DNA from: Eubacterium sp.
GTDB lineage: Bacteria; Bacillota; Clostridia; Oscillospirales; Acutalibacteraceae
Assembly: GCA_017446095.1 (NCBI GenBank)
Contig: JAFSRN010000022.1
Coordinates: 1 to 64,000 of the forward strand
Length of the DNA stretch: 64,000 bases
Direction: 5' to 3'
The number at the start of each line of letters is the position of its first letter. Position 1 is the first letter of the stretch. Positions 20,694 through 60,845 of this stretch are shown in pieces. A program made the translations under genes and the position numbers. Under the pieces are notes generated by a model, which ran no database searches, was not told the origin of the DNA, and saw only the letters and a list, made by a program, of their open reading frames with translations.

Positions 20694-20720
20694 AATAAAA
20701 ACCGCCTCACAATGAGGCGG
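20694..20720 (-). terminator. T-box intrinsic terminator of valS leader
   Basis: CCGCCTCA/TGAGGCGG stem with a 3-base loop, then TTTTTATTTTTA on the minus strand, directly before valS. It is the regulated terminator of the T-box. Confidence 0.93.
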
Positions 20721-20921
20721 AATAAATCCGTGGTACCACTCAAATTGCACTTACGTGCCACTCAAAGCCTTTAACGCAGGCGTACGAAACGGACTACTGC
20801 TACTTCACCCGTCTGGCTCATAAACTACCTTCACCCTGCAATTATGACGGCTTGCACCTTCCGCCGCCTCTCTGAAATAATTAACAGGATTACTCCTTTT
20901 AATCACAGCCGATAAATTATT
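20700..20921 (-). promoter_or_regulatory. T-box riboswitch, valS leader
   Basis: The conserved T-box bulge sequence AGTGGTACCACGG lies at 20740-20728 on the minus strand, and the terminator at 20720-20694 completes the switch. Stem I is closed by GGCT/AGCC (about 20910 and 20816) and has the distal-loop piece GGTGCAAGCC. The best specifier candidate is GTA (20828-20826) in AAGGTAGTTT on the 3' side of Stem I, i.e. a valine codon read by the tRNA-Val(TAC) encoded at 409-484. Motif, position and gene agree; the exact specifier is inferred. Confidence 0.93.
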
Positions 20922-59541: not shown

Positions 59542-60087
59542 TTATCTTATTTTTAAAACAGGACTATTTTTATGATAGCGGTCCACTAAAGAAACAAAAT
59601 TAGTAAAATCTTTAAACATCGGATCGTAAAAGCTTTCGGTAATATTAATATTAAGTTTTTCCATAGAACCAAAAATTTCAATTAAAGCGTTAAAAATTAT
59701 TTTACTATAATTATTATCGAGCATTTCTTTAACATATGCTCTTATTAAGACGCCAAAACCTAATCTATAAACATATTCATTATCAATTCCTTCTTCTTCT
59801 TTTTCTTCCTCTGTCATAGAATCATAATAATCAAACCCGCCCCAATCTTCATGGCGCGTATAATCAGGAAAGTTTTCTGCAATTGGATCGTTGTACAAAT
59901 AATCATATTTACTTGCAACTTCTACTGCTTTTTCTTCAAAACTAAAATACAATTCCTCCGTATCTGTTATATTTGAATTGATAATTTTTTTCTCATATTC
60001 TTCACATATCGCTTTAACAGCGAGAAACGGAACTTCTTCGTAGTATTCTTTTTTTTCGGGTAATTCAATCGTTATCGTTTTCTTCAT
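59542..60087 (-). CDS. AT-rich orphan protein, function unknown
   Basis: 181-residue acidic protein, rich in Glu, Tyr, Asn and Ile, with no signal peptide or membrane helix. A strongly charged stretch (MTEEEKEEEG, about 90-100) lies in the middle. Codon use is clearly more AT-rich than in neighbouring genes, which suggests recent transfer or an accessory locus. AAAGGA fits ATG 60087 better than the ATG 9 bases earlier. I do not recognise any domain. It stands between the peptide gene and the tRNA-like repeats, with no terminator visible after it. Confidence 0.7.
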   Translation of the reverse strand: MKKTITIELPEKKEYYEEVPFLAVKAICEEYEKKIINSNITDTEELYFSFEEKAVEVASKYDYLYNDPIAENFPDYTRHEDWGGFDYYDSMTEEEKEEEGIDNEYVYRLGFGVLIRAYVKEMLDNNYSKIIFNALIEIFGSMEKLNINITESFYDPMFKDFTNFVSLVDRYHKNSPVLKIR

Positions 60088-60116
60088 TTTATTCATTTCC
60101 TTTCGTTATTGATTAC

Positions 60117-60374: not shown

Positions 60375-60420
60375 CAAAAAAACAACCATTATGCACAATA
60401 TATAGTGTAAAATGGCTGTT
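60375..60420. terminator. Terminator-like hairpin at the end of the repeats
   Basis: AACAGCCATT/AATGGTTGTT 10-bp stem with one G-U and a T-run on both strands. It closes the tRNA-Trp/repeat region on the minus strand. Confidence 0.75.
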
Positions 60421-60425
60421 TTTTA

Positions 60426-60597
60426 TGGCAGGGGCAGAAGGACTTGTTCTCGCCTGCCGGCTCGGTCGGTGCTTCTGAACACAAGTGTTCAGAGGTCTCC
60501 ACCGGAGACCCGCACCCCTCGATACGCTTCGCATGCCTTGGTTCAAGCATATTTAGTCAATGTCGCAAAAAAAGACCGCAACTGCGGTCTTTTTTTA
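60426..60597 (-). repeat. 172-base tandem repeat unit 1 (tRNA-Trp-derived)
   Basis: The first of two tandem 172-base copies. It starts (plus strand) with the same 21 bases as the 3' end of tRNA-Trp and then continues with a different sequence holding two perfect hairpins. It ends with a copy of the tRNA terminator (60567-60597). It differs from unit 2 at two positions only (60523 and 60536). On the minus strand, 60519-60426 forms a 94-base segment with a tRNA-like acceptor and CCA. See unit 2 for the fold. Confidence 0.92.
60567..60597 (-). terminator. Terminator copy inside repeat
   Basis: AAAGACCGC-AACT-GCGGTCTTT hairpin with 7 T; an exact copy of the one after tRNA-Trp. It would end transcripts of the unit 2 tRNA-like segment. 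Confidence 0.85.
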
Positions 60598-60769
60598 TGG
60601 CAGGGGCAGAAGGACTTGTTCTCGCCTGCCGGCTCGGTCGGTGCTTCTGAACACAAGTGTTCAGAGGTCTCCACCGGAGACCCGCACCCCTCGACACGCT
60701 TCGCATGTCTTGGTTCAAGCATATTTAGTCAATGTCGCAAAAAAAGACCGCAACTGCGGTCTTTTTTTA
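60598..60769 (-). repeat. 172-base tandem repeat unit 2 (tRNA-Trp-derived)
   Basis: Second copy, adjoining tRNA-Trp. On the minus strand 60691-60598 (94 bases) begins AGGGGTG and ends TGCCCCT-G-CCA, so the two ends can form the same 7-bp stem as tRNA-Trp. Between them lie the perfect hairpins GGTCTCC/GGAGACC (60666-60682) and TCTGAACA/TGTTCAGA (60646-60665) and a G+C-rich segment. The T-arm of the tRNA is not preserved. The unit ends at the tRNA terminator copy. Confidence 0.92.
60739..60769 (-). terminator. Terminator of tRNA-Trp
   Basis: AAAGACCGC-AACT-GCGGTCTTT hairpin with 7 T on the minus strand, directly after the tRNA CCA end. Confidence 0.92.
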
Positions 60770-60845
60770 TGGCAGGGGCAGAAGGACTTGAACCCTCGGC
60801 ACGCGGTTTTGGAGACCGCTGCTCTACCAACTGAGCTATACCCCT
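60770..60845 (-). tRNA. tRNA-Trp (CCA)
   Basis: Full cloverleaf on the minus strand, 76 nt with encoded CCA. Acceptor AGGGGTA/TGCCCCT (one G-U), anticodon loop CTCCAAA between GCGGT and ACCGC giving anticodon CCA. Its last 21 bases are repeated in the two units downstream. Confidence 0.96.

Follow-up and report, generated by a model that had tools for sequence, protein, structure and literature searches.

Two tandem units behind a clostridial tRNA-Trp gene are probably spare tRNA ends entered by a dispersed structured repeat

Each of the two tandem units that lie downstream of tRNA-Trp in the window (the whole 64,000-nucleotide stretch analysed, from Eubacterium sp. contig JAFSRN010000022.1) is probably a spare tRNA-Trp 3' end with its terminator, into whose T-loop a small mobile repeat, structured and non-autonomous, inserted before the unit was duplicated in tandem. 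The repeat itself is dispersed and multi-copy, with a conserved three-way-junction fold. It appears to be a widespread structured family in gut and rumen Clostridia and in some phages; the family and its anatomy appear to be new, of a kind (intragenic palindromic repeats) that is already known.

A repeat search placed the two direct repeats of 172 nt, which are 99% identical, at 60419-60590 (unit 1) and 60591-60762 (unit 2); these and all the features below are on the minus strand. The intact tRNA-Trp (anticodon CCA; ARAGORN, and Rfam tRNA at 66 bits) at 60770-60845 is the source of the duplicated 3' end. Copies of its last 21 nt, including CCA, were found from the sequence and the repeat search at 60598-60618 and 60426-60446, and a 28-nt piece comprising the tRNA-Trp 3' end and the next bases is present in three copies, each 172 nt from the next. 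Two terminator-like hairpins, each a perfect inverted repeat with 14-nt arms, were located, one directly 3' of tRNA-Trp (60739-60768) and the other, with a T run, beyond the tRNA end next to the second repeat copy (60567-60596); past the tRNA end of unit 1 there is, by eye, a different hairpin-like stretch. Immediately before the two tRNA ends are the repeat copies, GTGC...GAGAA, at 60447-60515 (copy 1) and 60619-60687 (copy 2). They are identical, and the covariance model scored each at 89.6 bits (E 1.1e-15); the model match for copy 1, 60447-60519, takes in flanking target bases, and that for copy 2 is 60619-60691. Upstream of the core in unit 1 is a short hairpin (60516-60546), judged by eye and against the cassettes of relatives to be an imperfect inverted plus direct copy of the tRNA-Trp variable loop and the 5' half of the T-arm; it ends in the GAGGG target, and its counterpart in unit 2 is at 60688-60718. 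The only differences between the units, 60523 T/60695 C and 60536 C/60708 T, fall in this small hairpin and thus in neither repeat copy. A preliminary description of this DNA had given the same layout, namely two 172-base units with two differences outside a 94-nt tRNA-like segment, each unit with the tRNA-Trp end and a terminator, and had proposed that a block of tRNA end and terminator was duplicated; all of this is supported. The hairpins that it placed within the segment are also real, as the 172-nt unit (-63.9 kcal/mol, z -3.38) folded better than all 200 of its shuffles; the 94-nt piece by itself is less striking (z -2.23, with 6 of 200 shuffles as good). Elsewhere in the window, a T-box leader is found at 20710-20915 on the minus strand (Rfam, 130 bits).

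The repeat has sharp edges: over 134 distinct copies, the base at -1 is G in 91%, and the first base after GAGA is C or A in 99%. The copies are 62-72 nt long, apart from four longer ones and a shorter subfamily of 56-58 nt. Stem P1 (GGTGC/GCACC) surrounds hairpins H1 and H2 and is followed by GACCGA, a 3-bp hairpin H3, and GAGA; the fold is, in short, a three-way junction plus a small 3' hairpin. Over 83 copies, 95.7% of cells were paired, both sides had changed in 16 of 22 pairs, and the covariation score was 0.328, as against 0.098 when shuffled and at most 0.042 when slid. H2 varies in both length and sequence with its pairing mostly kept, and the shorter subfamily, which lacks it, retains P1, H1, H3, and the 3' module. 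That module, GACCGA..GAGA, is mostly unpaired and nearly invariant; its invariance, together with its retention where H2 has gone, suggests that it is recognized by something. Inspection of the aligned copies revealed no terminal inverted repeats. Constraint on an RNA strand should favour G-U over A-C mismatches. Excluding the two outermost H2 pairs, the stems contained 16 G-T and 13 A-C mismatches; this near-equality points to constraint on DNA or to a palindrome-correcting mutational process and argues against a clear RNA strand, and the constraint on the fold thus looks to be DNA-level or mutational rather than clearly RNA. Relative to co-directional neighbour genes, 26 copies found with a loose 3' pattern were sense and 31 antisense.

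A BLAST search with a 131-nt query matched about 70 nt of the unit in 17 of 98 genomes, including its own, several of them multi-copy; among 28 relatives' loci scanned, only one (L006) holds tRNAs. The covariance model detected the repeat in 40 of 394 genomes, representing 29 of the 168 genera of the order. No more than 12 candidates were scored per genome, so that copy numbers are lower bounds. In genome G361 a copy rides as a passenger of a larger repeat in 11 of 12 loci, which means that copy number overstates transposition. In its own genome, the model found the two window copies only. The 3' part of the core is present in at least 120 stretches of genome contigs (79 of the 80 listed are labelled as Clostridia- or Bacillota-type, and the exception is a 4.2-kb contig with an Alistipes label) and in 14 viral contigs; two Ruminococcus phages match by BLAST. 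One of the genomes that matched this pattern is that of Eubacterium coprostanoligenes ATCC 51222. An exact 28-mer of the core was absent from the viral contigs, and plasmids gave no match to the repeat. Neither the window nor 20 loci from relatives gave the repeat a match to an Rfam family at gathering score; no published description turned up in the available parts of the literature searched, in which six core strings likewise did not occur. The core is therefore found in many genomes with strong covariation, and not in one genome only without covariation in relatives, the outcome that the preliminary description had named as counting against a functional reading; its view of the core as structured, conserved, and part of a family is borne out. 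One locus (L230, about 1495-1865) contains a head-to-tail array of 63-nt repeat units joined as GAGAA|TGCGGG.

The T-loop of tRNA-Trp appears to have been a repeated target. Besides the window, six loci (L006, L007, L108, L163, L196, and L217) have the repeat at the same point, and five variants are present among the seven: L006 equals L108, L163 equals L196, and L217 carries the subfamily without H2. Several independent insertions are the simplest account of five variants at one point. L007 and L196 are partial tRNA copies beginning near the anticodon loop, whereas the remaining T-loop loci are cassettes with an imperfect inverted plus direct T-arm copy (by eye); in L006 the tRNA part has degraded to about 7 nt. 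All of the T-loop copies sit in redundant, that is, partial or duplicate, tRNA-Trp ends, and no intact RNA gene with the repeat was seen. Insertion into the sole working tRNA gene would presumably be lethal, so that insertions in redundant copies of a gene end would be those that survive. Unequal crossing-over between copies of the tRNA end may then have generated the 172-bp tandem. Spare ends of this kind recur in relatives. A survey of tRNA-Trp matched 49 of 80 genomes, and in 10 of the 30 loci examined, the window included, a further tRNA-Trp 3' end occurs within 350 bp. The other nine contain different structured inserts, two kinds of which we named types B and C. Nothing but tRNAs reached the Rfam gathering score in 15 loci with other inserts. 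Type B, a third structured insert without an Rfam match, occupies the tRNA-Trp cassette, where GGAC- and -GTCC arms enclose it (L252, L261, L263, and L266). Because the covariance model of the repeat misses both types, the CC-RGT-GG hairpin tip that they have in common is considered a by-eye resemblance only.

Insertion sites were compared with empty ones by matching joined flanks to the collected loci; 40 copies had junction-spanning matches of varying quality. In the best filled and empty pairs, L068 (96.7%) and L032 (93%), RGG-N became RGG-GTGC...GAGAC, with the loss of one base; at the T-loop copy in L007, GAGGGTTCAAG became GAGG-repeat-CCAAG, with two or three bases lost. On the evidence of these pairs, the repeat is seen to enter after RGG, replacing about one base at the best sites, without target duplication. 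Exact 14-nt direct repeats flanked no copies except those at tRNA-Trp. For the phage copy in L158, the empty-site search gave no match, and for that in L035 the only full matches were in the same two phages, four others covering 14-20% of the query. A preference for hairpin loops as targets was entertained, as the flanks pair better (-13.58) than permuted partners do (-12.06, sd 0.31); it is not claimed because dinucleotide-shuffled right flanks were not exceeded (-13.40 versus -13.02, sd 0.28).

Copies also lie within genes. Seven ORFs with a Pfam domain read through a copy in frame, all seven copies being sense: a relaxase (L016), a C5 methylase (L157), a ParA-like protein (L189), a topoisomerase (L193), two TnpV proteins (L018 and L229), and a DUF7768 protein (L165). 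In L018 and L165 the copy precedes the matched part of the domain. For L016 and L157, homologous loci without the repeat were found at 70-76% identity. Two ORFs with seemingly uninterrupted Pfam domains (L128 and L076) contained the loose 3' pattern, taken as chance, and were left out; also uncounted were ORFs without a Pfam match and those in L011, L017, and L019, in which the repeat is antisense and upstream of the domain. The sense bias of the coding copies was considered as a sign of insertion at the RNA level and rejected, since intergenic copies are unbiased.

Candidates for the activity that moves the repeat were sought by comparing carrier with non-carrier genomes; the latter, some of which could contain weak copies, were defined by BLAST or by the model search after filtering. 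A Y1 transposase is encoded by 14 of 22 carriers versus 9 of 24 non-carriers, RVT_1 by 9 of 22 versus 8 of 24, and IS110 by 3 of 22 versus 1 of 24. The eight carriers lacking Y1 include G074, in which the repeat has at least 12 copies. Because each is missing from many carriers, RAYT, reverse transcriptase, and IS110 were rejected as required mobilisers. REP elements bear tag motifs. Ends of the form GTGCG...AC are group II intron-like; such an origin was dropped because the best empty sites hold an extra base and RVT_1 is absent from 13 of 22 carriers. No transposase family adjoins many copies. Six ORF clusters recur near copies in at least four loci, including a phage methylase (seven loci) and a tyrosine integrase (four loci, 174-2035 nt away). 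Within the loci collected, there was no autonomous copy with a gene inside, for example in place of H2: the 5' module is followed by the 3' module within 95 nt in 175 of 184 cases, at 98, 116, 158, and 443 nt in four, and not within 6 kb in five. The repeat may be mobile at the DNA level, possibly in the form of a folded single strand, and may depend on enzymes provided in trans. In the viral contig of L163 (456-1703 and 10179-11213), a partial tRNA-Trp adjoins a tyrosine integrase gene, and the contig also encodes a CI-type repressor and a protein with a reverse transcriptase domain.

Counting against a mobile repeat are the detection of just two copies in its own genome, the passenger copies of G361, the degraded tRNA part of L006, and the failure to find a mobiliser, terminal inverted repeat, target duplication, or autonomous copy. 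Alternatively, the dispersed copies could be RNA genes of a functional family of small regulatory or antisense RNAs, with transcription behind tRNA-Trp followed by processing at the CCA end. A strongly covarying fold, a unit that out-folds its shuffles, a terminator-like hairpin in each unit, and the fact that relatives, too, have structured inserts after tRNA-Trp would all suit such a family, but we consider it improbable: G-T and A-C mismatches are about equally frequent in the stems, copies lie in either orientation to their neighbours and within coding ORFs, and there is no match in Rfam. Another proposal is that covariation arose without selection, palindrome-correcting template switches keeping hairpins perfect in an otherwise inert repeat spread by recombination and phages. 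Its mismatches would be strand-symmetric, as they are, and a hairpin 2 that changes in length and sequence yet remains mostly paired is what such switches would leave. Template switching does not, however, account for a mostly unpaired 3' module that is nearly invariant, nor for a subfamily that has lost H2 and kept P1, H1, and that module, and we judge this explanation unlikely.

The preliminary description had spoken of a remodelled tRNA 3' end with a new middle sequence, possibly serving as a tRNA mimic or decoy. The tRNA-Trp end with its CCA is indeed there; the middle, however, is a copy of about 69 nt of the dispersed repeat. The proposed acceptor stem is missing from the predicted fold, in which the 5' AGGGG is unpaired with the CCCCT of the tRNA end. 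In sequence terms, AGGGG joins the end of the T-stem in the tRNA copy to the base with which the inserted repeat begins, and its likeness to an acceptor stem is therefore coincidental. ARAGORN and Rfam detect only the real tRNA-Trp, and the core resides mostly away from tRNAs (27 of the 28 relatives' loci scanned have none), the tRNA part being missing from most of the other copies listed. The mimic was dropped for want of a second detected tRNA and of acceptor pairing, and a tRNA-like molecule built from the tRNA-Trp end is very improbable indeed. If integrative elements target tRNA-Trp in the genus, the units might alternatively be scars, attachment sites that such elements left behind. In G455, G469, and G001, the contig that bears the full gene also has partial tRNA-Trp copies, about 10-14 kb away from it; the tyrosine integrase of L163 adjoins a partial tRNA-Trp; and the partial tRNA copies of L007 and L196 have the repeat in their T-loops. 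Yet the cassette of L163 is found on the far side of the attachment copy and its terminator rather than between that copy and the integrase, and for this reason a phage attachment site was dropped as the origin of the cassette. Moreover, the one ORF searched to the left of the units (59542-60096) has no Pfam match, and similar units at 5' gene ends (purA and tRNA-Pro) would be left unexplained. We therefore regard scars, too, as improbable, and prefer entry of a mobile repeat into a spare tRNA end.

Units of gene end plus structured repeat are not confined to tRNA-Trp. Type C is a structured repeat of ~110 nt with a conserved core of 24-27 nt; among 80 genomes from the genus, 34 matched a type C query, many of them by the ~27-nt core alone. 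It adjoins fragments of neighbouring tRNA genes: tRNA-Leu (24 nt, exact, in L276; near-exact by eye in L284), tRNA-Pro (L277, L278, L292, and L297), tRNA-Met (L299, 115 nt), and tRNA-Ser (L296, 18 nt). An exact repeat of at least 15 nt was absent, though, in 13 of the 26 copies tested. L279/L298 and L299 hold type C twice. In L295 (about 860-1060), a type B insert near tRNA-Glu seems by eye to have a type C repeat nested in its hairpin tip, and this insert is followed by 12 nt that match, also by eye, the tRNA-Glu 3' part. Units upstream of purA combine a start region and the gene's first ~36 nt with type C (L281, 1-1679, from contig C2 of the window's own genome, and L300-L306), with the intact purA of L281 at 402-1679 (Pfam Adenylsucc_synt). 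At least one false purA start precedes the gene in each of seven species. The false start agrees with its own species' gene at 33-35 of 35 bases, versus a mean of 30.0 of 35 with the genes of other species; the 30 bases upstream of it match at just 9-28. Unequal exchange with concerted evolution would explain this matching, and there may also be a functional need for the false start to match its own gene. The window could tentatively be seen as one case of a general class, in which an essential gene has its end duplicated in a process coupled to the insertion of a small structured element, and persists next to units, sometimes tandem, of gene end plus element; the class would take in three structured repeats, at the tRNA-Trp 3' end and, for type C, at tRNA-Leu, -Pro, -Met, and -Ser and purA. 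We consider a class this broad rather doubtful.

The repeat is of interest because it seems to move without terminal repeats or target duplication, writing short peptides into proteins of mobile elements, and because units of gene end plus structured repeat beside essential genes offer a handle on joint insertion, duplication, and concerted evolution at tRNA genes. Its closest parallels include the Rickettsia palindromic elements (RPE), which, in the part of the source available, are small palindromic mobile repeats of 105-146 bp with 12-bp terminal inverted repeats, found in intergenic regions, in frame in protein genes, and also in RNA genes (PMC2229807). The repeat described here is likewise small, palindromic, intergenic, and in frame within protein genes, but it is about 56-72 nt, with few longer copies, and by inspection has no terminal inverted repeat. 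It further differs from RPE in its three-way junction and fixed 3' module, in its hosts (Clostridia and phages), and in residing within spare tRNA-gene ends. REP/REPIN sequences with their RAYT (Y1) are also short, hairpin-forming, and dispersed, according to the available portions of PMC3116915 and PMC2817692, whereas 8 of the 22 carriers here have no Y1 transposase. MITEs such as Correia/NEMIS, RUP, and ERIC share the non-autonomous, dispersed, structured, intergenic plus intragenic character (as far as Table 1 of PMC2229807 describes them); the repeat differs from classical MITEs in that inspection showed no terminal inverted repeat, the target is not duplicated, and the loci collected yielded no parent transposon. 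Repeated hairpins are described in the accessible part of one report as invading sponge mitochondrial genomes (PMC2800124); the repeat here, however, is bacterial, with a conserved three-way junction and 3' module.
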